NCBI GenBank assembly: GCA_030272585.1
Contig: BSYQ01000015.1
Span: forward strand, 62,001-126,000
Length of the DNA: 64,000 nucleotides
Origin: Bryopsis sp. KO-2023
Lineage: Eukaryota > Chlorophyta > Ulvophyceae > Bryopsidales > Bryopsidaceae
Direction of reading: 5' to 3'
Part shown: positions 3,001-59,845 of the stretch, piece after piece
How the letters are laid out: each line of letters begins with the position of its first letter
How positions within the stretch are numbered: the stretch's first letter is position 1
The notes under the pieces: model-generated
Database searches by the model: none
What the model saw: only the letters and a program-made list of their open reading frames with translations
Told to the model about the DNA's origin: nothing
Program-made: the position numbers and the translations under genes

Positions 3001-3540
3001 CAGAATAGACAAAAGCAGAATGCAGACAAGCATAGGAGAGAAGATGAGTTCAAGGTGAATGATGTGGTCCTTCTGAGTACAAAAGACTTGAAGCTGGCTG
3101 GGGATAGATGCAAGAAGTTGGGTCCAAAGTATGTGGGTCCATTCAAGATTCTGAAGAGAGTGGGCCAAGTGGCCTATGAATTGGAAGTCCCTCAACAGTG
3201 GAGTCTACATCCAGTGTTCCATATCTCAAAGCTGAGGAGATACATCCAGGATGAACAATATGGGGAAAGGGAACCCAACCCAGTTCCTCCTGAGATCATT
3301 GATGGAAACACAGAGTTCCATGTGGAGAGGATATTGGATCACAGAGAGATCAGAAGAGGCAGAGGCAGGGGGAGGACCTCAAGAGAGTTCCTCATCAGAT
3401 GGCAGGGGTATGATAGAGGCCATGACAGTTGGGAGCCTATCAGGAATCTGGAAAACTGCCCAGAAATTGCAGCAGCATATTTCCAGCAAAACAATCTGGA
3501 GGCATCAATCCAGGAAAGGAGGATTTGGAAATGGAGTTGA
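1..3540 (+). CDS. Ty3/gypsy chromovirus pol polyprotein, 5' truncated by the window
   Basis: The frame is open from base 1, so the start codon lies outside the window and GTG at 52 is not a credible start. Domains in order, numbered from base 52: a linker ending in a protease-type tail; reverse transcriptase with the FLDD form of the catalytic box (VFLDDILIYS, about residues 275-285); RNase H with an ATDGSQSG motif near 425; an integrase zinc module HxxxxxH..CxxC (GGHKGKER, CRSCPVC, about 725-765); integrase core with SDRDARF and a DGQTER glutamate (about 850-890); and a C-terminal chromodomain (RWQGYDRGHDSWEP, about 1115-1130). The last domain places it in the chromovirus branch of Metaviridae. 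A polypurine tract and LTR follow the stop codon. No internal stop or frameshift is visible, so this copy may be young. Gag and most of the protease are off-window. Confidence 0.95.
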   Translation: MCRPNKVPIKLQGFHPKVAAVQDPQEINLLSASEAKRCLKNRDGEAYLVLVRKTQDPQASGEINAAKQIRNPGESMEVKGTEDGTDANFKSMVDGLDDELKELKDVLNDYKDVFPMDLPSHLPPHRPWDMKIPLKDDAKPIFGPLYKQSPKELDALKEQLDYLLEKGMIRPSHSNFGAPVLFVPKPGGALRFCVDYRALNRATKITQFPIPRMDEMLDRLGHAKYFSKVDLRAGFWQLRMAPGEEGKTAFRTKYGQYEFLVMPMGLSGSPGHFMSMMNEILAPFIDKFVQVFLDDILIYSSTPEEHAQHMKLVLEALRKHKLYAKLVKSAVGKKEVDFLGTWVTHQGVQPMADKLDAIKQWPIPSNVHDVRSFLGLCCFYRRFVANFSGKAAALTNLTKGNQQFIWGEEEKQAFEDLKDALCSAPVLIHPREDWPWIVATDGSQSGVGGVLMQEGPDGLHPVAFESHKLTDAESRYPIHEIELLGIVHCLKKWRAYLEGREFVLRTDNQSLVWLDSQQHLSRRQARWVEFLAPFRFQTVHIPGKDNVVADALSRCPHPVDPRDSGSGGGDLKASTPTGTTKTLVQHDGKVQRYQGLGAWGENHPQDLVFDEQPGEPLGSRLVKVTGCQTGKLPERLKTDVMPSDARGGTKWGTGKGLSRSDEQINALEKSSMEPMAQGSPKEVADAQMNDEHCKEILKRLDSDIQTQRVFKMSTDGVLQTVEGKIVVPQSLKAMVMKEGHDSLIGGHKGKERTLSTLQQHFWWKKMSQDVAQYCRSCPVCQKTKSSTQKMAGDLQPLQIPNRRWSSVSLDLITGLPRTERGMDAIVVFVDRMSKMSHFCATKGTIGAVGMARMLFDEVWRHHGMPEDLVSDRDARFTSELWKELMKLVGTTLKMSSARHPQSDGQTERLNRILEESLRAYVSHSQTDWDLKLSAAEFVYNQGKQSSTGYSPFYLNSGEEPLVPAALLGRKKIETPIRGVDEILNDLKMDVEVAKTCIARAQNRQKQNADKHRREDEFKVNDVVLLSTKDLKLAGDRCKKLGPKYVGPFKILKRVGQVAYELEVPQQWSLHPVFHISKLRRYIQDEQYGEREPNPVPPEIIDGNTEFHVERILDHREIRRGRGRGRTSREFLIRWQGYDRGHDSWEPIRNLENCPEIAAAYFQQNNLEASIQERRIWKWS

Positions 3541-16837: not shown

Positions 16838-18454
16838 TCACACTACACCATCTTTGCCTGCAACGCTGTTCATAGCCGGGATGTTGGGCGAACCAGCAGC
16901 ATCGATTCTGTCTAACAGCATGTGCATATCGTCCCTTAAATCTCGCAATTGACTGTTCACACTGGTCTGAAACTCAGAGAAACTCTGCCCAAACCCATGT
17001 TGGATGCAGAACGAGGGGTCGCTGTCGCTTGCCCCCAGTTTCTCGGTTTTCAATTCGCGCTTCTTCACCGCGTGGGGGTGATAAGCCGTTTCCACAATCG
17101 TCTTGGACCTCTTCAAACCTGGGTTGGCATCTTCGTGTCGAGCCTTCCTCACTCTTTTCACCCATTTCATGAAAATGCCGACCAGCGACATCGCCACGCA
17201 CACCCCCAGAATGATCCAGAGACCGACCATGTGGCGGAAATGAACTGCCTGAGTGTCGCTCACTTCCTTGTCGATGGGGCAATCCCGCAGCTGAATCGAA
17301 ACGTACGCCTCTTCCAGCTCCGTCATGGTGCCATTCTCTTGCAGCGCAACCAACACCCTGGAGAAATCCTCCTCGATCGATTTAGACCCGTTCGGGAACA
17401 CGAACCCATAATCGAACGGGCTGAGGGTGTCTCCCAGAACGAACAGGGTGCAGTCCTTGGCACCCAAATGGGTGACCCACGGCTCGTCGTATATCAAGGC
17501 ATCGTAGTTGCTGCCGGGCTTCTTGAACAGCTCCACCTCGTCGTCTTTCTGAGCGGACGTGAAAGTGCGAGAAACATGGATTCGCTGAGTTCTCAGCCTG
17601 GTTTCATACACCCCTCCCGCCACGATTTTCCGCCCGCTCAGGTCCTCTACCGACTTGATCGAGGATTCGATGTTGGTGATGGTCAGAAACGCAGCCAAGT
17701 TGGCCACGTACGTGTTGATCAAAATCAGCACCAGGAAACCGTACCCCACCACGATGATCCTTGCCTCTTGAGAATGCACCGTGAAATTCCCGAAATTGAG
17801 CAACGTCACCAGACTGTCCCAAATCGCCTGTTTCAGCCCTCGAGACCAATCCTGCTTGTGGATAAACCCATGGCAAGACAAGCTCTCGATTATGAACACG
17901 ATCACTGGGATGACTAAACTGGTGAGGGCCATAGCCAGCCACACCGACCAATGCAGGGGGTTCAAAAACGACCACGTGCTCCCTTCGTTGACCTGCCCTC
18001 TCACCAGCACCCCCAGACTCCCTCGGTAAGTTGGGAAAGAGAAATGCAAGCCAGCTTTCAACCTCTGCGTTGTGATCGTGATGCCCCCCACCCCCATGTC
18101 GCACTTCTCCCCTCCAACCAACAAGTCCGACATCATTTCCCCGAAAGGCAAGCAATGGAACTCGTAATTGACTATATTCAAGTCCTCTGCTGCCCTGCGG
18201 AACAGCTCGATGTGGTATCCGCTGGCAGTCGTTGCGTTGGAACAAGTCACCAACGGCTCAAAATGCGCTGTACAAACCCTCATAGTTTTTCCCTTTTCTC
18301 CTCCCAGTATCGTTGCTTTTCGTTTCGGAAGCACCTCATTTCGTTGCTGGCCTTTTTGCACCACTGGCTGAGAAGTTGCTGTGGAAAACTGGGAGGCTAG
18401 CAGTGAAATTGCCAAGATAGTGAAAATCGGCCCCATCGTTCTGGAACCACCCAT
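16838..18454 (-). CDS. Ionotropic glutamate receptor-like channel subunit, single exon
   Basis: The ORF opens at 18523, but I prefer the ATG at 18454 or 18436 because a signal peptide (MGPIFTILAISLLASQFSTA) starts there. Layout: a first ligand-binding lobe with GVGGITITTQRLKAG, equivalent to the agonist-binding Arg loop; M1 (WSVWLAMALTSLVIPVIVF); a pore loop (GLKQAIWDSLVTLLNFGNF); M3 with NTYVANLAAFLTI, a variant of the SYTANLAAFLT gate; a second lobe with YDALIYDEPW; and M4 (HMVGLWIILGVCVAMSLVGIF). The cytosolic tail is short and partly coiled. There is no amino-terminal LIVBP-like domain, so the about 538-residue protein is shorter than animal iGluRs or land-plant GLRs. Ligand and ion selectivity cannot be deduced. 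The lack of introns is unusual beside its split neighbours. Confidence 0.9.
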   Translation of the reverse strand: MGGSRTMGPIFTILAISLLASQFSTATSQPVVQKGQQRNEVLPKRKATILGGEKGKTMRVCTAHFEPLVTCSNATTASGYHIELFRRAAEDLNIVNYEFHCLPFGEMMSDLLVGGEKCDMGVGGITITTQRLKAGLHFSFPTYRGSLGVLVRGQVNEGSTWSFLNPLHWSVWLAMALTSLVIPVIVFIIESLSCHGFIHKQDWSRGLKQAIWDSLVTLLNFGNFTVHSQEARIIVVGYGFLVLILINTYVANLAAFLTITNIESSIKSVEDLSGRKIVAGGVYETRLRTQRIHVSRTFTSAQKDDEVELFKKPGSNYDALIYDEPWVTHLGAKDCTLFVLGDTLSPFDYGFVFPNGSKSIEEDFSRVLVALQENGTMTELEEAYVSIQLRDCPIDKEVSDTQAVHFRHMVGLWIILGVCVAMSLVGIFMKWVKRVRKARHEDANPGLKRSKTIVETAYHPHAVKKRELKTEKLGASDSDPSFCIQHGFGQSFSEFQTSVNSQLRDLRDDMHMLLDRIDAAGSPNIPAMNSVAGKDGVV

Positions 18455-18523
18455 CAATGAGATTGCACACTGTCCCCCCCGTTCGACCTGTGCAAACATA
18501 ACAACACTTTGATAATTGACCAA

Positions 18524-21500
18524 GTTTGATTTGGAAAATGTCCTGAATTCCCAAGTAAAGAAAACAACTTTACTTTTACTCTCTTTTTTTCAATCTTTAT
18601 TTCTGAAGTCCAACCAAGTTCCAGACATTTTGAGTTTGTGGCATTATTCGCCCCCCCAAAAACTGATTTAGTTGAATTAAGAACTGTTACTTGTGAGTGA
18701 GAGTGTGAGAGGGGGTGTTCTGGGTTAGGAGTTTTGGTTCGATTCCTTGAAGGGTGCAGGGGAGTCGCAAAAAGAGCCAAATCTATTCTCAAAAAATTCA
18801 ATCTTCAGGCATGTTGATCAGATTTGCTAAATCGAAAGAAATCGGTTTATTCCACACAATAACTTCCAGAACTGGGGCTTCGAAGCATTTTGGAATTTTA
18901 GAAGCTGTGTATTGTCAACTAGGTTCAATGTAAGGCCATCTTAGATCAGTTTTCTGATTTCGTAGAGTCCCTCCAGCATTTTTCTAGTGCTCTCCCTTTG
19001 AAAATTCGAGCCGTGTGTGAGGGGATAGTTTCTGGTGTATTGAAAGTAACGCGCGGTACAATAAGGAGCATCTGCTACAACGTCTAACAGGAGCCCAGCG
19101 TTGGTTCAGTAAACGTTTCGCGGTTTAAACGTGGTGTGTTTCCGACACTATCAAAACTTGGCATCGAATGGCGCGACCTCAAACTTACGAGCCGAGTGAC
19201 AAGAAAGACTTCCGTTCTTCTTGACGCGCCCAGGGAACCGCAGTTTCTGGCACGGAGCACCTCTCCCTTGAACGCGCGCGCTGGCGACGGAAACAACTTT
19301 TGCACAAAGGGGTTTGCACAGTCACGATGTTCACCGAATTACCAAGCAGACGTTCGAAGTCCAGCGCGAGTGGAGGCCAAGATAGCGCACCTATGACTAA
19401 AGACGCCACCGGATGCGTTACAGAGGATGGGCTCTGAAATAAATGAAAGCCGCTCGACTGGCGCCAGCAAGAACAAAATAGAACGTCTCACTGTCGAGAA
19501 TCGGATCATATGGTTCAGCTATCAAAAAAGTGAATTCTGCACGAAAGAAGCATGGAAAATTTGGGAGCCGCCACTCAACTCAACACACCCAAAACCGCCT
19601 CATGCTGGTTTACTGAAAACAGGCCCCTCCCAGACTGAGTTTTGTACGAAATAGGGTCTTGAGAAGGTCTCAAAAAGTTATATCGATGTTCCAGCGGCTT
19701 TGGCCATCTTGACGACGTCCGATGGCTATCCCGACGTCCACCAACTGTTGCTTTCTTCTTCCTTGACAGTGAATTCTGAGAAGTTTCGGTCCATCCATGT
19801 TCGACAAAATCACCTCATCCAGTACTAGGTCAGCGAAATGAAGAGGAGAAAAAGTAGCGCCACCAACGTCAGAACATCCCGAAGACCTGAAGCTGACGTC
19901 GCGCGTCCCTGGTCAGGGCGGGGTCTTGTCGAGGCCTTGTTTTTGGGCAGCGTATTTTTGGCACCGAATTACCATAAAATACTGCCTGAGAAACGGGTGC
20001 CAATATGGAAAACAGATGAATCTGATACTTGCAGAGCTCCTCGAAACGACGGTGCCCCGAGCTCGTCGAAGACGGTGACAAATGCGGATTTTCTCCAGAA
20101 CGAACTGTTCCAACCCCGCATCGAGTGACGATTGGTGGCTGTTCAAATTTCCCTTTCACAGCACCAGTTTCATCAATCAAAAATGTTGACGCTTGACGCC
20201 AGAAATATGAACAATTTCTTTTCGAGAGGATGGATTGTTTCGCTTAGTTCACACTGGTTCGATGTTTGGGGAGGGCCCCGCTCATGCCCACCGCCCAGGG
20301 TTGGTGCGAGACCAAAGCAAGACGTGAGTGTTGCGAAGTATCCTGTTTGTTTTGTGTGTTGGAACGTTTTTTTGAGACCATATTCCGAGCGAATCGGCGA
20401 AACTGTACTCAAACTGTTACACGTCTCGAGTCCATCTCCAGCGTCTGCTACACTCGTAAACGCCCCTCGCTCGAACGACAGCCGCCTTTTCGACATATTC
20501 TTGAGCGTGCGAGTCGTCAACAAGAGGAATCTACAGATTTGTTCAACCGTCACGGTCAACGTTTTCGATCTGCTTGCGTCCACTTGGCCTTGTTCACAGC
20601 GCGTTGGTTGAGAACTTTTCGAAAAGCTTGATCCTGGACGTCGAAGTTTCTGGCAACTGATCGCGTCCAGGTACTTGTTTCCTTGCATAATCCTTGCAAC
20701 CGTTCGCCTCTGAATGGAAAACAGACGAGTCCCGCTTCGAAGGTTGTCGTAGTGTTCCGAAACAGGTTTGCAGGGAAAAGTATCACTGGCGTCTCCTTTC
20801 TGGACGGTAGGTGTTTTCCGCGTCAAACGGGCTCCGTGCCAAGTCTGCGTTTGTCGCTGGGTACTTTGCTTTGCATGTCACCAGTGGTCCGTCTCCACTA
20901 ATCCACAAGTTTATTGTTGGGAGATGTTCAGTAACAAAAATGCCTCACGTATCGAAGAAAAGATATCTTTCAAATTTAGAATCTTGTTTGGTCGGACGTC
21001 ACCCCCCAGGTCCTTGGAGTCATCAGCCACATTGAGTTATGCACCAGGGCAGGTAGTCCCTGAATTCCCAGGGTCTCAAGAAAGTATAATGCAAAATCAT
21101 CCAGAACCTTGCAGTGGCGACCCAGGGGCTACTGAGCATCACACAGGTCCGCCCGCCATCCCGTCTACACAACGTTGAAAAGCTCCAGACACTTTTACGT
21201 TTGCCACAACTGTAAGGGCAAAGGGGCAAGCTACGTTGTTTGTTTTCTGTTTGCATGTGCGGTCACAGACCTGTTCCTATTTTCATTGGGGGGAAGTCCA
21301 AACAACATTCACAGGAACTTTTGTTTTCCTTCAACTCACACGAGACCATCCCTGGCATCATAACCTCCACCTCCCCCACTGTGCCATCCTGGGAGGGGTA
21401 CACTCGTGGATTATCCAGTTCTGGACATGTTTTCCAATGCAACCCTCCTTTGTTGAACCTCACGCAACATTTGACCTCTGTTTCTTTTCTTTGTTCTGTC

Positions 21501-44722: not shown

Positions 44723-47700
44723 TTAACCATGGTAACTTCCAGAGATGCGGACCTTGCTTGTGCAAGATTTCTCACACTTCCTCTGGGGAATCTTCTCGCA
44801 CTCCTTGGTGTAGGAGGTTTTGCAATCCTTCTCATAAACAGTCTTGCAGACGTCTTCGTACACCTTCTTGCACTCATCCTTGTATTCAGTCTTGCAGACG
44901 TCCTTCTTGACGTCCTTGCAGACATCGTTGTAGACCGTCTTGCAGACATCGTCGTAGTACGGAGTGCACTTCTCCACATACGAGGTATTACACTCATTTT
45001 TGTATTCAGTCTTGCACTCCTCCTTGTGCTCAACGTCACAGTTCACAGTCGGAATGTACTTGCAGGTTTCTGGGGTGGTGTGGCACTTGCCATAGTGATC
45101 GCAGACCTGGAACAAGAAAAAAGCACGCAACGAAAACATCAGCGACAAGTCACGACGCCAGCACGGGACGTGGATCTGATTGCATGAGCTGAACCACGTA
45201 TTCTACCTTCTTTCCAGGCCAGCACTTTTTCTCGGACCCCTTCTTGCAGGCCTTGTGTGGGACCTTCTTGCAAACCTTGTTTGGCACATCCTTGCATGTT
45301 TTGTGGGGAACTTCTTTGCAGTTCTCTTTCTTCACCTTCTCACAAACCTGCAAACAACAAATGCGACAAAATCTCACCCCACCTAAAAGAACGAGGGTCT
45401 TCGATTCGGCGCCGCCAGAGCGCACTGCGCAGGTGGACGTACCTCCTCTGGAACCTGCTCGCACTTCTTCTCATACTCAGGGTGGCACTTTTCGAAGGGC
45501 ACCTGCTTGCACTCGTCCTTTGGAATCTTGTCGCATTTCTGTTTCGGCACATCTTTGCACACTTCCTGGGGAACATCGCGGCACTTGTCTGTGTACGTGG
45601 TGTGGCATTTTGGCTCTGCAAACACACAGAGGGGCCGTCAACGCACAGCCCGAAGTGCCACGAGATTAACAAAGCTCCTGCAGAAAACCTTACCGCACTT
45701 GTGACCGTAGCTGCCCAACAACACTATGGGAAAACCCGCTCTGTGCGGGGTTGGTCGAATCTCCGCCAAATATCGAAGAACGTCGAACTGACGAATTAAG
45801 ACCCGAAACAGAACAGAAACGTATCAGGAACGGTCGGATGTACCTGGGTTCGACTCCCAGGCGTTCCAATCCCCTTACAACTGGGGTCGCGAAAAAGTCG
45901 TCAGCGACTGGAATTCGCGACCCCGCACAGATGTCTGTGCGGGGTTATAAACACCGCACATGAGATCAACGCCGCACAGAGATCTGTGCGGGGTGACCAT
46001 AAAAAGAGGGAATTTTCTTAAAACAAAAACACACACAAGTGCCCACAGTCCCCGAATCCCAAGCAACCCATCTGTCCATCCAAACCCACAAGGTTTAATA
46101 GCCCAAACACCATCCACACAATGTACCCCACACAGAAGTCCACAACCCCGGCCCACACAGCCACATGCCCCGCACAAACACCGCGAAGAAAAAGAAGGAA
46201 GATCTTTTTACTCTTTCACTTGCTCTTTCGAGCAGTTTTCGGGGTTTTGGGGGAAATTCATTCAAAAAAACACACACAGAGTTGTGCCCACAGTCTCCGA
46301 ATCCCAAGCAACTCATCCGTTCATTGAAACCCGCAAGGTTTAATAACCCACAATATCATCAGAAAAAACTATAAGTGCACGCACGTTAGTCGGAATAAAA
46401 AAAGGCCGCAGAGGGCTGTGTGCGGCGTTCCGACTCCGCACGATACGCATTCATAACAATACCAAACAAGAAAACCCAGTCCCCGAAGCTCAAAAAAACC
46501 TTGACGTTCATCCAAATCGATCAACTTCGGCTAATCTTGCCATGTCGAACCAAAAATGCCACACACAAAAAAAACAGGAAAACCACCACCACCGCACAGA
46601 AACCTCAACAGCCACGCACACAAACCCATACACCCCGCACAGACCTACTTTCTTCGGAACGAGCGACGTTTTGGGGACGGCGAACGTTCCTCCTCGGCCA
46701 CAAAACAACAGCCTCGCACACACGCACACGCACCCCGCACACACGCGCGTAAACCCCGCACCGCCGTTTACTTCTTGCGCGACGACCTGCGTTTTTTTGG
46801 TGAATCCTCCTTCGCCTTCTTGGACCTCCGCATTTTCTCGGCCTTTTCCAGAGCCTTCTGCCTGATGGACTTCTTCCCACTTTCGTACAACTGAGCCCTG
46901 TCCCACTTTTTTTTGGGCGGTTCATCCTCCCCCGCACTTGACTCGTAGTCGGGTTCGACATCGTCATCGACGTCCTGTGCGGGGTCCATGGGATCTTGTG
47001 CGGGGCTGTCGTCATCGTCTTCAGCGCCGGATCCTGTGGGCGCATCCTCGGCAACTGGTGCTGGAAGACCGGAAAGCGCTGCCTGGGCACTGTCGGAGAA
47101 AGGTCCTGAGGCACCGGAGGCACCGGAGGGACCACCGGTGTCATGACTTCCGGATACCTCTTCTGGGTCGCACACACTAGTTTTAGCCCCGCACACACAC
47201 AGATGAACCCCGCACACCAGAACATCAACAAACAGGTTAAAAACACTGACTTTTTGAACCACGCACAGAAGTCCTTGGACCCCGCACAACACAGGAAAAT
47301 AAAATATTTCAAAACCCAATGAATTCCTCACCTGGAGCCAGTGGAGGCGGCTGCAGTACACGGGGCACGGTTCGCTCCATCGGCTGCTTCCCACGGGCGA
47401 TGTCCTCCGGGGTCTCCTCGGGTGGTGGTTGACGGACCTGCGCGCACACGAGAAATCAGTCAGCGCACGGAGTATCTTAAGCCCCGCACAGAAGACCTTA
47501 CACCCCGCACAGATACCGAAACAGCAACACTTAACGGAACACGCACAAAGACAATCGAGGCCCGCACAGACGAATTACTAAAAACCACGCACAGAAGTTC
47601 CACAACCCCGCACAGAGGCGTTTGGGACACGCACACATGTTGTTTCACTCACCACACTGTCTTGAAGCAGCGTTCCCGTCTCGTCAAACCTTCGCTTCAT

Positions 47701-50700
47701 GGCCTTCACCTCGTCCACCCACGCTCCTTCTGTTGTGAACCACTCGTCGTTAGGGACGAGGGCGGAGCGCAGGTGGACGGTATCCGTGATCTTCTCACTC
47801 CGGGTGGCATTTTCTGTCTCGAGGGCGTCTATTCGCTTCTTATGCGCCTTAATATTGCGCCTGCTGTCCTGTATCCTGCAACCCCGCACAGAATCCAGTG
47901 AGCCACGCACACACTAAACCGAACCCCGCACACTGAGACCACCCCACAGACCCGCACACACTAAACCCCACCCCGCACAGAGCAGAAAAAGGGTACTTAC
48001 CTGTCGACCACTCTTTGGGAAAGAGTGCGGTGCCCGATGTAGAATCCCATACGGCCCCCAACCACGCCCGATTGATTTTGGGCGTGGAAGAGGATCCTGA
48101 ACAGCGTCATCCTCATCAATTCGAGAAGGCGCGGGCGGGTGCTTGCCGATACCACATTTCCTCCAACCTGCATACCACGCACAAACAACCGTCAGCCCCG
48201 CACACAGTATTACAAACCCCGCACACACGCACAAACACCGCACACACACACACACCAACACCCCGCACACACGCAAACCCACCCCGCACAGAATGGACAT
48301 CGCTGGTTGTACTTACCGTTATCCCGTCAGGCATGTTTTGCCTTGAGGCGAGCATCCTCATCGGGTTGCGGAGCGTCGGAACGATTTCTTGTGGCCAGTA
48401 CTGGTTGATCAGCTGCGAGATAAACACACATCAGGAAAAAAGTTAATTAACGAACTGGAATCCCCGCACGAAGGGCGTGGAGCCCCGCACAGACGTTTTT
48501 TAGCAAACCATTGAAGGAAGTGGTGCATGGAATTTTGTGCACCGCACCAAACCATCCGGACCCCGCACAGGGCTTGAATTACCTTATTTAGCCACCCAAA
48601 CTCTTTTTCGTTTGGGTAGTGGCGCCTGGTTTTCCCGCCCTTCACCCGCTTCTCGATGAGCCTCCCGTCGAGTGTGCCCGTGATGCTCTCTGCCATGGTA
48701 TTCTTTCCCGAGGGCAAATGAGCAGGCATGGGAGTCGCCATAGCAACGAGCATCTCCTTCGCCGCCTCGACCACAGCCTGTACACCGCACAAAGGCGTTA
48801 CAACCCCGCACCGCAATGTTGAAACCCCGCACAGATTCACAAAGAACAGGAAACACCAAACACCGCACAGAAGCACAACAGCACCGCATACGACAACATC
48901 CACCCCGCACACACTCACCATATCGATGGGCTCTATCACTGCATAGCCAATGGATTCCACCACATGCAGGTAGCTCTCCATATTTTGGATGGTGGAGGCG
49001 AGGGCATCATCGATGACGTTGAATATGGGCTTGTTTATCGTCTTTGTCGACCAGAAGTGTATTTTTCTGCCAGCGAAAGTCTGAACAAAAAGACAACATA
49101 GAATTTAGAGACAACCCCGCACACGGCCCCTGTGGCCCCGCACAAATCGAGACGGAATTCCCTGTACCCCCGCACAACAATTCGTAAAGCCCGCACGAAT
49201 ATATGGACACCCCGCACAAAAACCCTGTACCCCGCACAGCGAAAAACGTTTTACCCCACAGATCACAAGTTGTCAAACCGAGCCGCCTTTGCGAATAACA
49301 GTCGTCTTCGTGGAACCAGATTTTTTCCTCACCGCCATAAGAGCCGACGCCGTAAAAGGCCTCAGTTCGCCGTACTCCTCGAGGATCTCGCGCTCCCTCC
49401 CCTCGTTGTCGCCAGTCATTTTGTTAAGCACTTCCTCAAGTGCTCCGATCTCGTTAAGGGTAAGCACAAGAAAGAAAACAATCATTTTTGCAAAACGATA
49501 GAAAGGTAGGCCGCACACACCCAGTTCACCAGGGTTCTCGAGCTCGATTGCCCCGCATGAAGCGCCAGGGGTGGGTTACATTATTTATAAACTAATTAGT
49601 GTGACTTGCGTAATGTGGGCTGCTTTAGTTTCTGTCCCTTTCCGTCTCACTTGTTGTTTCCTTGCCGTTAGCGTTAAAGATGCCCAAGCCCGTGGGCTAC
49701 GCCGCCTTGAAGAGACACCTGCAAACTGAAGACCCCTGCTGCCCAGCATGTGGACAGCGAATCGGCAGCATCACTTCCTGGAAGAGACATAAGCGCGACG
49801 GTGGAACTTGCCCGAACGAGGATCGGCTTGAAAGGGAGCTGCTCGAGATGGCTGCAGGTAAGTTTTAGCCTGGAAATATGTTTTTTTCGCTTCCTTTCCA
49901 CACCTGACGCGCGTGCGGTGCCCCGACAGCGCTTGACGGCGGCACAGACCCGGCACAGACCCCGGTGAACCTCGCACATAATACGATGGACCCCGCAGGA
50001 GTATCCGTGGTGCCCGTACAGAATACGGTGGACCCCGCAGGACCATCCGTAGTGCACGCACAGAATACGGTGGACCCCGCAGGACCATCCGTAGTGCACG
50101 CACAGAATACGGTGGACCCCGCAGGACCATCCGTGGTGCACGCACAGGATGGGGATGCGGCTCTTTCCGAAGACGGCTTTGCTGATGACATTCCTGATGA
50201 ATTTGTTGATGAACATGTTGAGGAGGTGGATGAAGAGGAGGTGGATGAAGAGGAGGAGGAGGAAGAGGAAGAGGAAGAGGAGGAGGAGGAAGAGGAAGAG
50301 GAGGAGGAGGAAGAGGAAGAGGAGGAGGAGGAAGAGGAAGAGGAGGAGGAGGAGGAGGGAGAGGAGGATGAGGGAGAGGAAGGGGATCAGGGAGACGAGG
50401 AGGAGGAGTTTGACGTACAGGGAAACGCCACCCTCAGGCAGCCCCTGTACGCCACATGCAGCATGTCCCTTGTCCAGGTACGTGTGCGGCGCATTGTGAC
50501 TTCTGTGCGGGGTTGTCAAACAACCCCGCACAGAGGAACTGAGACCCCTCCACAGGAAACCAGAAACCCCGCACAGAAGTCATTTTACCTTATTCCCTTC
50601 TCATTGCTCTTCTAACCCTTCTGACCTTCTGTTTCAGGTGATGATAGTCCTTTGGCATCTGAAAGTCCACTCGGGAATGACACGGGAGACATTCGAGACC

Positions 50701-53700
50701 CTTCTGAGGTTGATGGCCGCGGTACTTCCGAAGCCCAACTCCTTACCGACGACATTCGCATCGTTCAAGGGGATGATGAAGGTGCGCCACCTGAAGAAAC
50801 AAACCTACCTGATGTGTCAGAAGGGTTGCCGAGCCTACAAGGAGAACAGGTAAGAGAAATCTCTGTGCGGTGTGAACGTACCTCTGTGCGGGGTTGTGTT
50901 GTCATTGTGCCGGGTGAGGCTGATTAGGTTGACGAATGTGTTTGTGGGCCAGGGGGCTTCTGTGCGGGGTAAACGAAGTCCTGTGCGGGGTATAATGGCT
51001 GTTGTGCCGGGTCAGGCTGTAGCAGGAAAACAATAGAGAAAAAAAAGAAAAAAAAGCAAACCCACAAAATTCAGAGTATAGCGGGACTCGAACCCACCAC
51101 CAGCAAAGCTACAGTCATGCACTCTAACAACGCAAACCAAGCGAACACGATATCCTTGAATCTGAACGCTTCCTATCACCCCCTTTAGCGTTATAACGCC
51201 TGATTAGGGGTTAACTCACAAACACTTACCCCACACACACACACCAATTGTGCTCTAGGGGAATCGAACCCTCGACCACACCGCCTAAGGTTATTCACCT
51301 TATCGATGGAGCACCCTAAACCACGATACTTCACCGATGTTAAGTTATTTTGTAACACTCTTTTAATCTTAATTTTATAGAATTGCAAAAAAATTAAGGT
51401 ATATTATTGCAACAGCCAAGACTCCGTCGTGGTCTGCTTGGATTAGTGCTCAGTATAGTATGACTTGACACCGTGTGGGACGGTGTTCGAACCCTACTCG
51501 GTGCCCTTGGGTTTGGGTTTTGTATTCGTACAAGAGAACCCGTTTTAACCCGTTTCAACCCGTTTTCGGTTTTATTACGGTTTAGTAGAGTATAGCCACA
51601 GAAGCCCCTAAACAATTGTGGTGTGGTGGCCTAGACTCTAGGCCCTAGAGTATCAAAGCGCATGGTCATAGTCTTAAAGGTTGTAGGTTCGAATCTCAAT
51701 AGGTTCTTATGAGTTTGGGGGTAGAATTGTGTGTCGTTGCAACGGTTTTCCGTGATCTGATCGGGGATCGGAACAGTCGGTCTCCGGTGATCTTCTACTT
51801 CGGCGTGAAGTCCGTCCTTCGCATCATGCATGGTAGCTATGCATTTTGCGAAGCGAGGATTCACGCCGCGATGAGATCCTTCTCGGTGAAGTCCACCCCT
51901 GTCATGCAGATATTGGGAGATTTGCTTCCCGACGGGGTGGATCTTCAGGATATCACCACCGGCCTCTATGAGGTCGGTGGTGACTATTTCGGCCTGGGGA
52001 CAGGGAGGCGCCGCAATTACTCGATCGGCGCCTTCTTTATCAGATGTGGTGAGCTGATATATATGTATATATTGGTTGTTTCTCGTTCCTATTGAGGTGA
52101 TTGATGTGAAAAAACACCGGTGTACTGAAGGTTTTCACGTGTGTTCGAATTTTTTCAGACGACCTCCATGACTCCGTCCGGATGCAGGTGGAGAACCACT
52201 ACCCTATTGCCCTCATCCCCGGTCCAAAGGAGCCCGAGAGCTTACAGGGAGTCCTGCGGTTGATTGTGCAGGACTTCCTGAAGCTCATACCTGGTGGGCC
52301 GGGGATGAGGTTGAGGGGATGGTCGCCCTCTGCCTCCGGATCTGGTGGACCCTTGACGCGCTCCGACAGTGTGGACCACCAGAGATAGGACTTGGGCCAA
52401 ATTTTTGGTCCGACTCCGGTCCGGTCCGGTTACGGTCGGGTTACGGTCACCGTACTACGGCCGTAACTCCGTACCGTAACCGGAGTAATATGTTGTTTTT
52501 ACGGTACGGAACAGGTACGGTATAACTACGGTAGGCCCTAAATCACCGTGAAGTAGCGTGGTTCAGTGCTAAAGCGTTAGGCTGCAGTCAGTAGGGTCGC
52601 GGGTTCGAATCCCCCTGGGTTCCTTTGGAATCGCGGGACCCTGCGGGGGTCACTTTCTACGGTTTACGGTTGTTACGGCCGTTACGGTCGTTACGGTCCG
52701 GTACGGAGCGGTACGGAGTGGTACGGTGCTACGGTTACGGCCGTAAAAGTACGATTTTCTGACGAAAATTGTACTCCGGTTACGGTCCGGTTACGGTGGT
52801 TACGGTCCGGTTACGGTGACCGTAACCGTAAAGTCCTATCTCTGTGGACCACTGGGCGTTGCTGTCCAGTGTGACCGGTGATACGCCTTGGCTTGCGAAA
52901 GTCGAGTTAGCACGCGGTCACACTGGACGCAACGCCTGTCCCGACTGTCATGGGACTACGAGCGTCGTCACCACTCGCTCCGGGGTCACTAGTCACAGGT
53001 GTGAAGCTACGTGATGTTGATCTAGTTGCCTTGGTGAACCTGATACACAGTTACGTGGAAACTGACGTGTTCGTCATTTATGTAGGTACATGGGGTATCT
53101 TGCGCCAACCAGGCGTTCCGAGGAGGACATGAGCGAGCTTCTGACACTCCGGCCGGGGCAGGTGTGTCCTTGTTGTCCTTGTTTTTATTATTGTTTTTGC
53201 GACTTCTTCGTTATTCTCTCTTCTTAGCATAAAGTGATCTCATGTTTTTTTTTAAGTCATGATTTTCTCGGTAATTTGATCCTATTTGGTGTTTTTATAG
53301 GACCCCAACTGGACGCCCATCGATCGTGACACGCACAGGACACGTGAGGAGTATTTGCACTTTGCAGCGCTCGCGGACACGTCTGCCTTGGACCCCGTCG
53401 CTGCGCATGTCCGCGGACGATCGGTTCTCCACGACCTTCCGTACTTCGCACCGGAAGTACTGAAGGTCGTGGGGGCCTCTCATTTGATGCTCTTTGGCCT
53501 CGTCAAAGACTTCTTATACGAGGTATGTGTGTTTCTCTTGCTTGTGTTTGATATATACTATGAATGCAAAAGGCTATTAATTGTGTTGTTGAAACCATAG
53601 TTTTTATAGAGTAAAGTTGTTCCCCACTCACTTCCTAAATACACAAACTCAAACTCGACTAACATCCCTCAGCCAAGCGGCGCTTTGACTTGCGCGATCC

Positions 53701-56700
53701 ACATGTGTGACTAAACCGCCCCATCCGATACTAATGGGTTTTATAGTGTGTTGATCGATAGTAACATATGTGTGATTGCCAAGATCCGGAGCCGTCTCCT
53801 TGGAGCTTCGCGGCGTGCAGACCTCGCCCAGTACCGGAGGGCACTTGCCGGCGTCCGACTCCCAACAGATTTTGGGGGTCTGGTGATCGACATCTGTGCT
53901 GACAGGAAACAGCACACGATGTACGATTACGCGTTGCTGGTTCGGTGAGTTCATTCTTCAATAAGGAAGCAAAATGTGTCTGAAACGAAACAGGAATACC
54001 AAAGGTCTCACTTTCATGTACGCTGTACGTGTAGGAGTTATGGGGCTTTCGTGTTCCATTCCTGCCTGCATAGAGACGAGTTCGTGGCCTGGGACCAGCT
54101 CTGCACTGCCGCCACCCACTATACCTCCCACCGAGCCATGGCTGGAGCTACCATGGATGACTGCATCGAGAGAGGCCGTGTGATTCGGGACACGATGTAC
54201 CAGTATGCTCGGTGAGCGACGTTGTGCGGGTGAAAACATTGGCGATTTCGTTTACTGTCATGAGGTTTTCCTTGTTCTTTCGATTGCGACAATACAAAGG
54301 CGACGATTATTCAGTGAATAATATTCACGTCTTAATTTTCACGTTTACAGGAACGTCCAAACCCTTTTTGGGGCGGGGATGTGTACCTTTAACCTCCACA
54401 AAATCATTTGTGTGGGTTATCGGCAAGAGAGCGTACGTGGGGCGATTTCACGTTCGGGGGAGTCGTGGGTCGAGCGAGCGGTTGGACACATCAAGCGTGT
54501 TTCCGCGGGACGTGTCAAGAGATGTGCGGGAGAAATGATTGCAAACGATGTTCTCTCCGACATGTGAGAACTACAGCCAAGTCTCCACCACTTTCGTATG
54601 CTCAAACTAAGTGAACCCAAGAAAAGCAGATAAACATGTTTGTACTATTCCTTTCTTTATGTTTTCGAAGTGTTGAACGATTCAATTTGTGGTTTTAAAG
54701 GGCGTTGAGGGCAAACGCAAACATGCTTTCGCAAGACGAGCAAAGTGTGGTGGACGCTATCATTACTCCCCCGCCGAGGAAGCCGTTGGACACCATCACC
54801 ACCCTGGAGTACACGTTTTCCTTCCTCCCGCGACCTGTATCGGCATCGGACATTCGGACATTCGTGGACGCCATTCGGGAGGCGATTAGGACGTACGTGA
54901 TTCCGCGGAAGCTTGTTGAGTTATAATTGATTGATTCCAAACGGGACGATGCACTAAGCTACCATTGATGTGTTCGTAGGTGGGGCTTCTCTCTTCCGGG
55001 GTGGACTGTGGGCGACCTGCTGCCATACGCCATCCACCGGACTTTCCGGGTCACTCGAGACACGATCCAGGGACGCGAGGAGTTTTTTGCGACTGGGTGG
55101 TCCTCCACGGAGCGAGGTATTAACCTCAAACTGTGTTGCACACTTAAATTTTGGTAAAGGGAATCTCCCCAAGAGTGGTATATTACCGGTTATGAGCTAT
55201 TGTTTTAAAATGTTGTGTTTTGCAGGTGACGACTCGACGTGTCTTTACGTCGAGTACGAGGACGACGAGGGCAGGAAGACGATGTATGGGGGACACGTCC
55301 GTGCCTTGTACACTGTCCGGGATGCTGGGTTCGGACGGTGTCCCCCTCGGGTCGTTGCGATGGTGGACCTGTACCAGCTCGTCTACGTGGATGCTCGATT
55401 CAGGCAGGGTCGTCCGGTGAGGCTCACGAACTTGTTCAAGACGAGGGGGAGAAAGCTTGAGGGTTATCCGGTGCTCTTGGAGGACGCCTTGTCGAAGCTG
55501 ATGTGTTTGAGGGAGGGCCAATCGAGATATTATTGCTTTTACACAGGGGTCTGATGTTGGGTGTTTCGTTCTTTCTTTATTTTCATTTTTGTCCTTTTTT
55601 GTGTTATGAATTGGCGGCCGTAACATTTTGTCTATGTTCTTCAACATAACGGTATATTGCGAGTTCTTTTGTATTAACGGTCACGAAGCTACACTTGAAG
55701 CCCAACACTCGGATAAACTTAGAATCGCAAGGATGAAGCCCAATTAGTAAGGAGATCAACCCAGAAGAAGAAACGAATGTGGAACATTTTCGGACTCAAG
55801 TGACCTGAGTTTAAACCCCACTCCTCCCACTTAACGACCCACAGTACCCATGGAAAAATCCCAGCTCCATGCAGACGTCAAATCCGGTCGTCACATCATC
55901 CGACGTCGTCAGACATGCGCATTACGACACGTGACTAAGGTTTTCAAAATTTTTCTGGTCGCCGTAATCGGGTAAGCGAAGGCTTCTGGAAGAACGCTCG
56001 CGTTCGACCGTGTTAACGAGCGTACTGCCCAGCGTGCAGCGACACGTTGGCGTCAGCGGGAAGGGAACTTCTTGTGTTCGCTATAATCGGGTAAGCGAAC
56101 GCTTCTGGAAGAATCGCCTTCGACCATCTTGACGAGCGTACGAGCGGTCGGCGGCAAGGTACACAGTTCGAGGTGCCCTCGTCTGAAAGTGCACTTCGTG
56201 TGACATGTGGTTTTATGGTGCTTCCAGGGGAGGTCACAGTCGGAAGGGAATCACTCGTCGAGAGCTTTATGGTGAGTAAAAGAGTTCAGAACCTGTGGCA
56301 GTGGAAAAGGCCCCACTGGTGCTGTTAAAGGAGAATGTGGAGACTTATGAAATTTGCAACTGGTTCCCCCAGATTGATCACCTTCAAACCCCCTTGTTCA
56401 TAGCATCAGCGAGCAGCAAACGTTCTTCTCCGTGGACGACGAAATGGTGAAGACGTTTTTCTGAGGGAAATACGAAATTACAAGGGGGAAGGGGTGGCAT
56501 CGGAGAGTGCACGGAGACTGGCGAACGAGGTCAACACACTACGGACGTTGCAGGGATGTCCACAGGCTGTAAGTCACTCGAAATAAAAAAATATATATAA
56601 ATAGACCTGGTCAGCTTTGCCTCCATGTGTCTATGTTGCAACAGTTGAACTGGAAGGTTCAGTCTGTTCTGTTTTTTGCATTACAGACACCCAAAAACAA

Positions 56701-59207
56701 AGAGAGGAGAGAGAAGTCCACCCCTTGAGGTTCCACCCCCCCCCCCCCCCCCCTGAAACTGATTCTGATGCGACGATGATCTCCGAAATGTACGAAGACT
56801 CTGTTTTGAATATCCAGATTTACCAACCTCTCGAAAAAAAAAACAAAAAAGCCTTGGATAGCTGGGATAAGCCCAAATTCTCGTCCCCAAAAAGTTAATT
56901 TCCCTCCCCAACCCCCCCCCCCTTCCCCTTAAAGAAGGGCATAGGAATATCCATTCTTTGTGTATCATGAATTTCTGGCAATTTATCTCGCAGGCTTAGC
57001 AAGGAGGACAACAAAGATTTTTCCAGTGCAAAACACCAAATCTGTATAATCTGTGGAGGCACGATATTCAGGAGGAAGTCAGGTGTGGGAAATTGAATGA
57101 GCAACATCTCTGCCATGGGGCCGACATGGACAGTCCCCAGTGTGTTGAAATACGTGGACAGTGTGTTAACAAACATAAAAAAATGCCCTGCAGTGTTACA
57201 TGGAATTATGCTGTGGGTGCATCAGCAAAATGCATTTCATGTAGCAGGAACCTTTTTTTGCAGTAGTGGAAATAGGCCAAAAAAAGGGAAAATGATGAGG
57301 TGGCTTTTAGTTATCTTTAAATGATTGATTTATTCCAACCGTTGGACGCAAAAAATGTACATAATTTGCATGATACAGTACACACCAAATCCTAGTTCTT
57401 GTTGATTGGGCAGGAACTAACCCCAGCAGAAAAAGGAAGGTGCAGGTGTGTTAGAATGGGCAGCCTGCCCACCCCATGAAAAAAAGGTAACAGCAATTGC
57501 AAAGGGAAGCTGGATAGGGTGATTTCCGCCCCCCCTTTTTTCCACTATGGTGCAACATGCTTGTTTTGTTTCTGGTATCATACTTGCGCATTGTTTTCTT
57601 AAAAAACGTTTTTAGTACTTGGTTTTGATTCAGGGGACAGACTTTGTCAAGACTTTTCCAACCTCAGTGAACCTGGATTCATATGCATATGACAACATAT
57701 GTTGCAGTTATTATGAACATTTGAACAATTACACCTAATGTGCTTTATTCTGCTTGGCTGAAAAAACAATTAAAAAATGGTTAAAGGTAGAAAAATGGTC
57801 AGATGGGTATTTATATGTTCAACGAGCTCTGTATTATTGAAATACAAGCGCAGGGTTGGAATGGCAGGATCAGAGTTCATGGTTTTGGGCTATTTTTTTT
57901 GTTTCTATTTCTGTTTTGGAATAAGTGGGGATGGACAAGTGTTCAATCATAGAATGGGGTGTACATTTCAAAAGGGGTTTTGTCATGTTGTTTTATTGTA
58001 ACAACCATTTTGTCACCATGAATCTGCACATATGTGTTTCTACAATCACCTAGCATATACACAGTGGAACCCCGCACAGGAACGAAAAACGCCGTACAGT
58101 CACCCCGCACACACTTAGAAAGAGCCCGCACAAGGCTGTAACAATCACCCCGCACACACACAGAAGAAGCCCGCACAGTCACCCAGCACAGTCACAAAAG
58201 AAGCCCGCACAAGGCTGTGACAATCACCCCGCACACACAGAAAAGAAGCCCGCGCAGTCACCCCGCACAGTCACCCCGCACACACAGAAAGTAAGCCCGC
58301 ACAGTCACCCCGCACACACAAAAAAGAAACCCGCACAGTCACCCCGCACGGTCACAAAAGAAGCCCGCACACACACAAAAGAAACCCGCACAGGCACCCC
58401 GCACACACACAGATGGAGCCCGCACAAGGCTGTGACAACCACCCCGCACACACACAGAAGGAGCCCGCACAAGGCTGTGACATTCACCCCGCACACACAG
58501 AAAATAAGCCCGCACATTCACCCCGCACACACAGAAAAGGAGCCTGCACAGTCACCCCGCACAGAGGCCCCGCACAGTTGTGCGGGGGCTTGTACCTCGT
58601 GTGCGGGGTGGTTCATGGTCCGCACAGAACCTTGAACACCCATGCACAGGGCAAACAACACCCCGCACGGCTCTGTGCCCCGGTTTGGCCCCGTATTGTG
58701 CGGGGTCCCGATTTAACCCCGCACAGATTGGTGCCCCGCACACGGAGCCTGACGTCTTCCATGTCCACCCCGCACGGCACCCCCGTACAGAGAATAGGCT
58801 GCCCCGCACACTGTACGGGGCTATGGTCCATCTGTACGGGGTCCCACAACGGGAAAGACGTCAGGCTCTGTGTGCGGGGTCCCAATCTGTGCGGGGTTAA
58901 ATCGGGACCCCGCACAATACGGGGCCAAACCGGGGCACAGAGCCGTGCGGGGTGTTGTTTGCCCTGTGCATGGGTGTTCAAGGTTCTGTGCGGGGTCTGC
59001 AAAACACCCCGCACAGACCGCGATTTCCCATAGTGCAATCGGCGATCTGAACGTTCAGAAAATAATGTTACTGTTCCGCCACTCCATCATTCAGAAAGAA
59101 AACGGCTCCATAGAAACTTGAGGATCGTTCCCCCGGCCCATACCCTCAGTTGCCGCAACCATCGCGGTGAGCCCAAGGGCGAAAACAGCTGCGAGCATAA
59201 ACTTCAT
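44723..59207 (-). CDS. Secreted cysteine-repeat protein, split by the CACTA transposon
   Basis: Exons: 59144-59207 (ATG and signal peptide MKFMLAAVFALGLTAMVAAT), exon 2 broken into 59036-59046 and 45694-45721, then 45443-45615, 45207-45347 and 44723-45106. With one CAA copy removed exon 2 is 36 nt and all junctions are in phase, giving 265 residues. After the signal peptide come short repeats of the type C-K-x(3-5)-C, such as QEVCKDVPKQKCDKIP and YEDVCKTVYEKDC, two Cys per 16 residues. This is a secreted, probably disulfide-rich or matrix-type protein; function unknown. The transposon interrupts exon 2. Because exon 2 is a multiple of 3 and both flanking introns are phase 1, skipping it would keep the frame (ATE then EPKC), so a protein lacking 12 residues could still be made if the 13.4-kb intron is spliced. 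Confidence 0.82.
45722..45751 (+). repeat. Left terminal inverted repeat of the CACTA element
   Basis: Starts CACTATGGGAAA and ends with the first TCTGTGCGGGGT motif. It is preceded by the CAA duplication at 45719-45721. Confidence 0.9.
45827..45867 (+). other. tRNA minihelix-like hairpin
   Basis: GGAACG (45827-45832) pairs with CGTTCC (45862-45867). Inside, CCTGGG TTCGACT CCCAGG forms a perfect T arm with the T-loop consensus. D and anticodon arms are absent; only 10 nt separate the two helices. It is a tRNA-derived remnant or a designed-looking minihelix near the left end of the CACTA element. Confidence 0.45.
45883..45944 (+). repeat. Two overlapping perfect hairpins at the left end
   Basis: GGGGTCGCGAA (45883-45893) pairs with TTCGCGACCCC (45914-45924), with an inner AGTCG/CGACT stem. 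Its last CCCC also starts a second palindrome, CCCCGCACAGA TG TCTGTGCGGGG (45921-45944), so the two structures are mutually exclusive. They lie about 160-220 bp from the transposon end. Confidence 0.7.
46768..49485 (-). CDS. CACTA element gene A: unknown 498-aa protein
   Basis: Eight exons, 3' to 5' of the gene: 46768-47162, 47332-47437, 47653-47875, 48001-48167, 48317-48412, 48583-48777, 48919-49080, 49333-49485. All junctions have GT..AG and keep phase. ATG at 49485 is chosen; an in-frame ATG 22 codons later (MTGDNEGRE) is an alternative. No family recognised. Visible features: a helical N-terminal half, a basic KRVKGGKTRRHY patch (about residue 155), a hydrophobic block LLELMRMTLFRILFH, a coiled-coil-prone RNIKAHKKRIDALETEN (about 260), a Pro/Asp/Ser-rich linker containing DPAQ repeats, and a Lys/Arg tail that looks like a nuclear signal (KKRRSSRKK). 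Divergent from the transposase across about 195 bp. By position it could be the second, DNA-binding CACTA protein (TnpA-like); that is inference. Confidence 0.8.
49486..49679. promoter_or_regulatory. Divergent promoter region of the CACTA element
   Basis: These 194 bp separate the start codons of gene A and the transposase gene. TTATTTATAA near 49580-49590 is a TATA-like candidate. The orientation of the TGTGCGGGG motif flips across this region. Confidence 0.5.
49680..55554 (+). CDS. TNP2-like CACTA transposase, disrupted by a MITE
   Basis: Exon model: 49680-49857, 49930-50477, 50638-50849, about 51714-52048 (5' edge uncertain), 52159-52998 (contains the MITE), 53086-53161, 53301-53522, 53784-53944, 54035-54211, 54351-54563, 54701-54892, 54980-55116, 55226-55554. 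Without the MITE and one duplication it gives about 1048 residues in phase. N-terminus: a C2HC-type finger (CCPACGQ..HKRDGGTC), DPAQ/DPAG repeats, a poly-Glu tract. TNP2-like core: VHSGMTRETFETLLRLMAAV, LPTTFASFKGMM, CQKGC; GGDYFGLGTGR (candidate first Asp, about 403); LIPGPKEPES; GDTPWLAKVELARGHTG; ACPDCHG; VLHDLPYFAPEVLKVVGASH; a late GESWVE glutamate (about 796). Where D-x-x-H is expected the sequence is GASH (about 630-633), losing the Asp. Part of the core between CQKGC and the first Asp looks missing or degenerate. This copy is probably inactive. Confidence 0.85.
49980..50147 (+). repeat. Coding minisatellite, 4 x 42 bp
   Basis: Four tandem units at 49980, 50022, 50064 and 50106, each encoding NTVDPAGPSVVHAQ or a variant. 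Each unit contains GGACCCCGCAGGA, a relative of the CCCCGCACAG motif, now translated as DPAG. Confidence 0.9.
50218..50376 (+). repeat. GAG/GAA repeat encoding a poly-Glu tract
   Basis: An almost pure run of GAG and GAA codons gives about 45 Glu in transposase exon 2, after a short VDEEEVDEE lead-in. Length is likely polymorphic. Confidence 0.9.
51075..51150 (-). other. tRNA-like segment 1 in transposase intron 3
   Basis: The minus strand has GGTGGGTTCGAGTCCCGC (B-box/T arm) downstream of GACTGTAGCT, which resembles a Tyr (GTA) anticodon region. An acceptor stem is not evident. Confidence 0.45.
51238..51315 (-). other. tRNA-like segment 2 in transposase intron 3
   Basis: On the minus strand GTGCTCC and AGAGCAC form six acceptor pairs around a T arm (GGGTTCGATTCCCC). 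The anticodon loop TTAGGCG would read AGG (Pro). The D and anticodon stems are weak, so it is a probable tRNA pseudogene. Confidence 0.5.
51440..51515 (+). other. tRNA-like segment 3 in transposase intron 3
   Basis: The plus strand has TAGTGCTCAGTATAG (A-box-like) and GGTGTTCGAACCCTAC (B-box-like). Stems are incomplete. Confidence 0.4.
51632..51702 (+). other. tRNA-like segment 4 in transposase intron 3
   Basis: The plus strand has TGGCCTAGACTCTAGG and GTAGGTTCGAATCTCAATAG. B-box match is good; acceptor pairing is not convincing. Confidence 0.35.
52380..52844 (+). mobile_element. hAT-like MITE with tRNA-like gene, copy 2, inside a transposase exon
   Basis: This 465-bp element has perfect 14-bp inverted ends (CAGAGATAGGACTT / AAGTCCTATCTCTG) and a perfect 8-bp duplication TGGACCAC at 52372-52379 and 52845-52852. 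Interior TACGGT-type repeats and the tRNA-like core match copy 1 at 26564-27027. Insertion adds 473 bp, which is not a multiple of 3, to the transposase coding exon. Confidence 0.92.
52553..52627 (+). other. tRNA-like core of MITE copy 2
   Basis: Same layout as in copy 1, with B-box GGTTCGAATCC at 52602-52612. Differences from copy 1 within the core are few. Confidence 0.6.
55555..58066. other. Non-coding right part of the CACTA element
   Basis: No supported exon. Two imperfect direct repeats containing ATCGGGTAAGCGAA and GCTTCTGGAAGAA lie at about 55962-56026 and 56080-56142. C-runs occur near 56735-56755 and 56908-56922. The TGTGCGGGG motif is essentially absent until about 58070. Confidence 0.5.
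58067..58575. repeat. Right subterminal array of CCCCGCACA motifs
   Basis: Motifs recur every 15-40 bp, alternating ACCCCGCACACACA with AAGCCCGCACAAGG or AGTCACCCCGCACAG, all in the CCCCGCAC orientation on the plus strand. Longer units such as GCCCGCACAAGGCTGTGACA repeat at least four times. Confidence 0.85.
58620..58993. repeat. Long inverted repeat, 139-bp arms
   Basis: The left arm 58620-58758 is the reverse complement of the right arm 58855-58993 with about three mismatches, around a 96-bp spacer. The arms contain several CCCCGCAC/GTGCGGGG motifs. Position is 40 bp inside the right transposon end. It would form a very stable cruciform or hairpin RNA. Confidence 0.88.
59006..59035 (-). 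repeat. Right terminal inverted repeat of the CACTA element
   Basis: On the minus strand it starts CACTATGGGAAA and reaches TCTGTGCGGGGT, with three mismatches to the left repeat in 30 bp. It is followed by CAA at 59036-59038. Confidence 0.9.
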
Positions 59208-59845
59208 GGTTTCGATCGACTGTCGAAAGAAGCAAAGATCCAAAGAAGAGCTGCAAGAGTCTGTAAAAAAATTCAATTGTTTAGGCTTTTTGCCTTTTTT
59301 CCGATCAGCGTCTGCGAAACTTTTCTTTTTCGTAACCAACCGCTGCTCGCTGCGATTCAAATAGTGTCCGGACAGCACCGGACGGACTGGATCCTAGAGG
59401 AGGAAACGCAACGTGCCATCATGCGTCGCATCAATTCCCAAGAAAGACGTTTTTTCAAACCCGATTTGCTCCTGGACCTTGGTGCGACCTTGAGTTTCAC
59501 AGCGCCCTTGAGCTGCTTGTTTCCCACGGCGGCTGGTGCTTCAGCACACCCTTGATTCAAAGGGAAAGAAACGCATGCGTACACTACTGGCACATGCGTA
59601 GTCCTTCCAACCGCCCAATAGACCAGATCCTCTGAAAACCGAGCAAGTTTTTTTGAGGAACCCGCTTGGCAACGCCCGGGCGGTGGATCATTTCCAACGA
59701 AATGTCACTCTTCAAAGCTGCCAAATGGAAATATCACTCTTCGTGTCAATCCCACACCTCACCTTTCGTAAACCATTGAACATGAACTTGGAAGCGCGTT
59801 GCTGCCACAACCTCATTTTCGCTTGCCCAAGGACGGTTGGTGACG
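59208..59845. promoter_or_regulatory. Divergent intergenic region between the Cys-repeat gene and KDSR
   Basis: These 638 bp separate two divergent start codons. The region presumably holds both promoters and 5' UTRs. No specific element claimed. Confidence 0.4.

Follow-up and report, generated by a model that had tools for sequence, protein, structure and literature searches.

The window, a 64,000-nucleotide stretch of the Bryopsis sp. KO-2023 genome, carries a 13.3-kb CACTA-type element at positions 45722–59035, set within a host gene. The element has two genes on opposite strands, a transposase gene and a second gene, and many copies of a short motif, counted here mostly in the looser form TGTGCGG. 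The features, with the basis for each, are as follows.

45719–45721, no strand: target duplication, left copy CAA, 3 bp (flanks compared)
45722–45751, plus strand: left terminal inverted repeat (TIR), 90% complementary to 59006–59035 and fitting the family TIR pattern
45722–46030, plus strand: left subterminal motif cluster, 6 TGTGCGG (motif count)
46031–46767, no strand: left non-coding stretch, 5 TGTGCGG (motif count)
46768–49485, minus strand: second gene, 8 exons, 498 aa, open, start codon uncertain (gene model)
49485–49333, 49080–48919, 48777–48583 and 48412–48317, minus strand: second-gene exons 1–4 (gene model)
48167–48001, 47875–47653, 47437–47332 and 47162–46768, minus strand: second-gene exons 5–8 (gene model)
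46976–47005, plus strand: motif pair spaced at 21 bp in second-gene exon 8, antisense to the gene, encoding PAQ..PAQ (motif count)
47163–49332, minus strand: the seven second-gene introns, 2–5 TGTGCGG each, 27 sense and 0 antisense (gene model and count)
49680–55553, plus strand: transposase gene, broken in the window copy, 13 exons in copy A (gene model)
49680–49857, 49930–50477 and 50638–50849, plus strand: transposase exons 1–3 in the window (gene model)
52380–52844, no strand: hAT-like insert in transposase exon 5, 465 bp (14-bp TIRs, 8-bp duplication TGGACCAC)
58041–59035, no strand: right end, with an array of 35 TGTGCGG and a 160-bp inverted repeat, 58599–58758/58855–59014 (motif count, self-alignment)
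59006–59035, minus strand: right TIR, pairing with the left TIR
59036–59038, no strand: target duplication, right copy CAA, 3 bp (flanks compared)

The window contains two exact matches to the 12-mer CACTATGGGAAA, inverted relative to each other, at 45722–45733 (plus strand) and 59024–59035 (minus strand); two more window sites match it with one base changed. The terminal repeats and the CAA/CAA duplication mark the same ends, as the preliminary description had claimed. Its further claim, that removal of the element leaves an in-phase host exon, holds in part. The alignment of the left host flank to a paralogue (L046, 81%) ends at base 1501, that of the right flank picks up again at 1503, and the overlap at this junction corresponds to the duplicated target bases. 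Once joined, the host flanks (1100 bases) give full-length, gapped alignments with two uninterrupted paralogues (80% and 72%), so that host paralogues cross the insertion point. The host-strand junction formed by removing the element is open in all three frames, which is compatible with a restored exon but not proof of one by itself. The host gene (44726–45721 and 59039–59208, minus strand) is cysteine-rich and, judged by eye, its product is probably secreted; stretches similar to it lie on contigs C15, C13, C16 and C5.

The whole genome (91.1 Mb, 28 contigs) was searched with a TIR pattern of 30 bases having 24 fixed positions, with at most two mismatches allowed. This assembly-wide search, which the preliminary description had proposed as a check, returned 105 + 109 = 214 matches and the reversed control returned 0. 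Twenty-one TIR pairs were examined, comprising the window, 17 others, copy A, a 57.8-kb pair on contig C13 and L043. Identical 3-bp flanks were present in 18/21; the exceptions are L014, a 15.7-kb pair on contig C2 and the 57.8-kb C13 pair. The 3-bp targets vary between copies and include CAA, CCC, TCG, TGG, GTA and others. Homology extending past the ends, which had been named in advance as evidence against the claim, was seen in none of the examined pairs, whose flanks and 3-bp duplications differ. Because TIRs and 3-bp duplications recur in sister copies and host paralogues are uninterrupted, 45722–59035 is supported as a real 13.3-kb CACTA-type insertion with exact ends. The C13 pair (C13:1498468–1556279), with TIRs 57.8 kb apart, was considered as one giant element and rejected since its 3-bp flanks differ. 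The ends of this pair are nearly identical to those in the window, and copies of both genes lie in between.

The window copy is one of many copies of the family and is itself damaged. Full-length matches to the transposase region (2.48 kb) were found at 96–100% identity in at least 14 places, the window included, and other matches were partial. Copies differ much more in the second-gene region (1.46 kb), at 77–100% identity among the best candidates scored. In most copies the transposase region stands at about 98% and the second-gene region at about 83%, a contrast which suggests that the second gene either changes faster or has been exchanged. Because copies A, B and C are 99.2–99.96% alike across aligned stretches, the family moved recently. 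In the copy at C4:1598907 (L041), the coordinates place an insert of roughly 1.1 kb within second-gene exon 7.

The transposase model of copy A (contig C4, 12,897 bp) is an open 1010-aa frame over 13 exons, whose product begins with a short zinc-finger-like part, followed by an acidic stretch and a core of about 809 residues. The 13-exon frame is also open in copy C (1006 aa), and the gene in copy B lacks exon 3. In the window, exon 4 lacks 84 bp and exon 5 is split by the 465-bp insert. Because of this deletion and insert, the window copy would, on the gene model, be unable to make full transposase. The terminal 14-mer of the hAT-like insert is absent from the loci of copies A, B and C. The same 14-mer recurs at window position 26564, so there may be further copies of the hAT-like family whose member disrupts the transposase.

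The transposase core (809 residues) gave no Pfam match up to E 10, and the spliced core gave no homologue among the best-scored candidates in a protein database search. Pfam matches to the whole transposase were confined to the acidic stretch or were weak zinc-finger matches, and a PDB search yielded two matches, both on the acidic stretch. Comparison with a Transposase_21 locus elsewhere in the genome produced chance-level alignments only (best E 0.13, in another part of that locus). In one of these (30% over 54 aa, E 0.58) both sequences read, by eye, VTGD...AC..C...GYL, which may correspond to the second catalytic D and the CxxC of CMC transposases.

The second gene runs divergently from the transposase gene on the opposite strand. 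Its frame is free of internal stops in 7/8 copies, with the C4 copy counted after leaving out its insert, and has one internal stop in C5. All seven introns are GT..AG in 8/8 copies, and codon positions 1 and 2 are more conserved than position 3 in 7/7 comparisons with the window. The earlier description of two divergent spliced genes agrees with the gene models, and both genes are probably spliced as modelled. The second protein has a basic C-terminus. It had no Pfam match and no homologue among the best-scored candidates in the protein database.

Since neither Pfam nor the protein database gave a match to the transposase core, placement among CACTA elements rests on the ends, the duplication and the layout. 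TIRs that start with CACTA, a variable 3-bp duplication, subterminal repeats in both orientations and the frame of a second protein are all present. A 3-bp duplication is common to CACTA and PIF/Harbinger elements (PMC2213677), and the family could in principle belong to PIF/Harbinger or some other superfamily that combines such duplications with two genes. However, the ends read CACTA/TAGTG. PIF/Harbinger elements do have a two-gene layout, but they prefer TWA targets, and the 3-bp targets of the Bryopsis family are arbitrary, not TWA. Such a placement is therefore very improbable.

The Bryopsis element resembles En/Spm, Tam1 and soybean Tgm in its CACTA ends, its 3-bp duplication and its subterminal repeats, which lie in both orientations and are more numerous on the right (PMC2613891); soybean Tgmt*, for example, is described there with 4 subterminal repeats on the left and 24 on the right. 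A further likeness is that, in the sections of that account cited here, repeats and binding protein are little alike between families, and there are two proteins (TNPA/TNP1 and TNPD/Tnp2), one of which binds the repeats (PMC2613891). In contrast to these elements, the Bryopsis second gene lies on the opposite strand and the transposase is not recognised by Pfam. In the same sections their repeats are described in subterminal regions (PMC2613891), whereas those of the Bryopsis element also fill every second-gene intron. The preliminary description knew of no described element with this combination of features. That is too broad for TIRs, subterminal repeats and a transposase accompanied by a second gene, which make up the ordinary CACTA layout; the ends, the duplication and the presence of two genes are all usual for such elements (PMC4158355). 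What is unusual is the motif arrays inside introns; no paper on this Bryopsis family or on motif-filled CACTA introns was found in the open-licence literature searched.

Within the window the motif is almost confined to the element. TGTGCGGGG has 61 exact occurrences in the element and 0 in the ~50.7 kb outside it, and TGTGCGG has 86 in the element versus 3 in the rest. The 103 TGTGCG cores of the window yield a consensus close to TGTGCGGGGT, and this motif is often repeated 21 bp apart. Genome-wide, 173 motif pairs were found exactly 21 bp apart with the spacer left free, compared with 0 in the reversed control. Between neighbouring TGTGCGG in the second-gene introns, 6/20 steps are 21 bp (mean 0.46 and never more than 5 across 5000 random placements) and 10/20 are 21 or 42 bp (mean 0.69, maximum 6 in random placements). 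Spacers inside the listed 21-bp pairs differ widely among themselves. These counts, together with the intron arrays, bear out the unusual motif landscape that had been noted earlier.

Orientation depends on where the motif lies. In the second-gene introns TGTGCGG stands at 26–29 sense to 0 antisense in each of 8 copies, whereas orientations at the element ends are mixed (left 3/3, right 6/29). The motif is also present in both TIRs. Only two TGTGCGG lie in second-gene exons, both of them antisense and together forming the PAQ pair; the looser GTGCGG occurs once sense and three times antisense in the window's second-gene exons. Transposase introns 2–3 in the window contain 6 sense and 2 antisense TGTGCGG, with intron 2 alone at 2/2. 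In copy A, transposase introns 4–12 contain one TGTGCGG, and the transposase exons contain one sense and one antisense. A TGTGCG core starts 11–16 nt before the 3' splice site in 5/7 second-gene introns, an observation made post hoc, as was its test, in which random placement reached 5 such introns in 40/20000 trials.

One explanation is that the motifs act in RNA, with UGUGCGGGG in the pre-mRNA serving as a splicing signal for a host factor or an element protein and so setting the amount of second protein. The uniformly sense orientation in the second-gene introns beside mixed orientation at the ends, the antisense orientation of both exonic TGTGCGG, and the position of cores where a pyrimidine tract is expected (post hoc) are all consistent with an RNA signal. 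However, the same motif is found in both TIRs and both ends, where RNA need not exist. Orientation is balanced in transposase intron 2 and in the transposase exons of copy A, and both orientations of GTGCGG occur in second-gene exons. An array that grows by duplication will in any case be mostly of one orientation; the right end is an example (29/35). We consider a signal acting in RNA unlikely.

Non-coding relatives of the element were compared with the coding copies. At E 1e-10 the gene region finds no counterpart in any of the 17 examined, and their motifs lie mainly at both ends; the left-end cluster is retained in most of them. TGTGCGG is absent from deciles 2–7 of length in 13/17, and the same deciles contain 38 in the window and 40 in copy A. 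The four relatives with middle motifs are L016, L021, C9 and C2_15.7k. Because 13/17 lack them, the middle motifs are probably not needed for mobilisation.

The intron motifs are better conserved than the sequence around them. With the window as reference, seven copies compared and gaps counted as differences, motif positions are 93.4–100% identical and intron spacer 69.5–93%; the eight copies share ancestry, so these comparisons are not independent, and positions picked by motif in one copy are biased toward the ancestral state. When random sets of 22 intron 9-mers were drawn, none of 2000 reached the motif identity in 6/7 copies, and 17/2000 reached it in C5. With gaps excluded, motif beats spacer in all 56 ordered copy pairs. 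The most divergent copy, C7, has 96.5% identity to the window at the motif and 69.5% in the spacer, and 88.6, 89.2 and 79.0% at second-gene codon positions 1, 2 and 3. Judged by sequence identity to this copy, the intron motif is better conserved than the second-gene protein code. The contrast drops to 84% motif versus 69% spacer when C7 is the reference and gaps count as differences. Second-gene intron 1 is longer in C7, with 7 motifs rather than 5.

These values bear on a second alternative, in which the intron arrays have no function: repeats from the ends would have moved into the interior through slippage, duplication and conversion, with only introns tolerating them. Few motifs lie in exons, introns tolerate repeats, and the number of motifs per intron changes between copies (5 or 7 in second-gene intron 1), as such spreading would produce. 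On the other hand, motif identity to C7 remains high where spacers fall to their lowest value, and the spacers of 21-bp pairs are so unlike one another that the similarity of the motifs cannot be put down to recent tandem spread. Motif conservation and the random-set tests weaken the case for functionless arrays, and we regard it as decidedly improbable.

We read the motif as a set of binding sites for an element protein that are reused to control the element's own genes. Our preferred explanation, which we hold to be probable though well short of certain, is that this is a recently active CACTA-type family whose second protein binds TGTGCGGGGT and whose intron sites let that protein act on the genes of the element. 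We infer that one protein cuts and the other binds the repeats. The spliced transposase of about 1010 aa (plus strand) would cut at the CACTATGGGAAA ends and generate the 3-bp duplications. The second gene (minus strand, 498 aa) most likely encodes an accessory DNA-binding protein that corresponds to TnpA/TNP1 and whose predicted site is, most likely, TGTGCGGGGT, often spaced by 21 bp, or two turns of the helix. The end clusters of the motif would serve transposition, and selection would keep the sites in the second-gene introns and in transposase introns 2–3.

Intron sites for an element protein have a precedent in Arabidopsis. VANDAL elements are MULEs. In VANDAL21 a short motif gathers in introns and in intergenic and terminal non-coding regions, and the element-encoded VANC21 binds these motif arrays, with loss of DNA methylation (PMC5735166, PMC10398659). 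The Bryopsis arrays are similarly placed in introns and further non-coding parts. VANC proteins carry highly variable regions, according to parts of the same reports (PMC5735166, PMC10398659), and the Bryopsis second-gene region likewise varies more than its transposase region. Compared with VANDAL21 as portrayed in those parts, the Bryopsis element belongs to another superfamily and has a different motif (YAGTATTAY there, TGTGCGGGGT here) that recurs in 21-bp phase, has a fixed sense orientation in introns and occurs in TIRs too. The Pfam and protein database searches showed no VANC likeness of the second protein. Other precedents come from CACTA elements themselves. When the repeats lie within a transcription unit, CACTA protein bound to them reportedly halts RNA polymerase (PMC2613891), or is suggested to prevent intron splicing (PMC4219821). 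Spm-suppressible alleles and soybean TgmR*, as presented in the relevant passages of these sources, also have protein-binding repeats within a transcription unit, but in a host-gene intron, whereas in Bryopsis they are in the element's own introns.

The VANC and CACTA-protein precedents point in opposite directions, toward methylation loss and toward blocked transcription or splicing, respectively. Under the binding-site explanation, the second protein might keep the element's genes unsilenced, as VANC does, or it might throttle their transcription or splicing, as in the Spm suppressor function. The locked orientation of the intron motifs is not required by pure DNA binding and counts against this explanation. 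Together with the cores 11–16 nt before the 3' splice site, the one-handed orientation favours an effect on the transcript.

A more specific version, which we advance tentatively and think rather unlikely, is that the intron sites act as a sensor. Element protein bound to the sense sites phased at 21 bp, which stand a short way ahead of most 3' splice sites in the second gene, would control splicing or transcription of the second gene, and the level of its product would follow the number of sites in the genome. If true, this would be self-regulating copy-number control in a eukaryotic DNA transposon. It would also be a second origin of VANDAL-like intron motif arrays, beyond land plants and in another superfamily.

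Because most of the examined non-coding relatives lack them, the internal sites can be separated from those needed for jumping, and selection on the internal sites is measurable. The question raised in Arabidopsis, why some transposons load introns with sites for their own protein, becomes testable in a green alga and in another superfamily. The Bryopsis family also offers a test of whether such control through intron sites evolves repeatedly.

An Rfam search of the window gave no match. Elsewhere in the window, positions 1–3537 (plus strand) contain a Ty3-type retrotransposon frame with reverse transcriptase, RNase H, integrase and chromodomain, and positions 16841–18589 (minus strand) an ionotropic glutamate receptor-like gene with relatives in Bryopsis and Ostreobium. 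On another contig, C27:134464–147043 carries cox1 split across more than 12 kb and is probably mitochondrial, presumably part of a large, intron-rich mitochondrial genome. When virus contigs were searched for the motif pair, one contig matched. This contig (L044, IMG/VR) has a run of CCCCGCACA repeats with the same core motif at positions 1–180, near the contig end.
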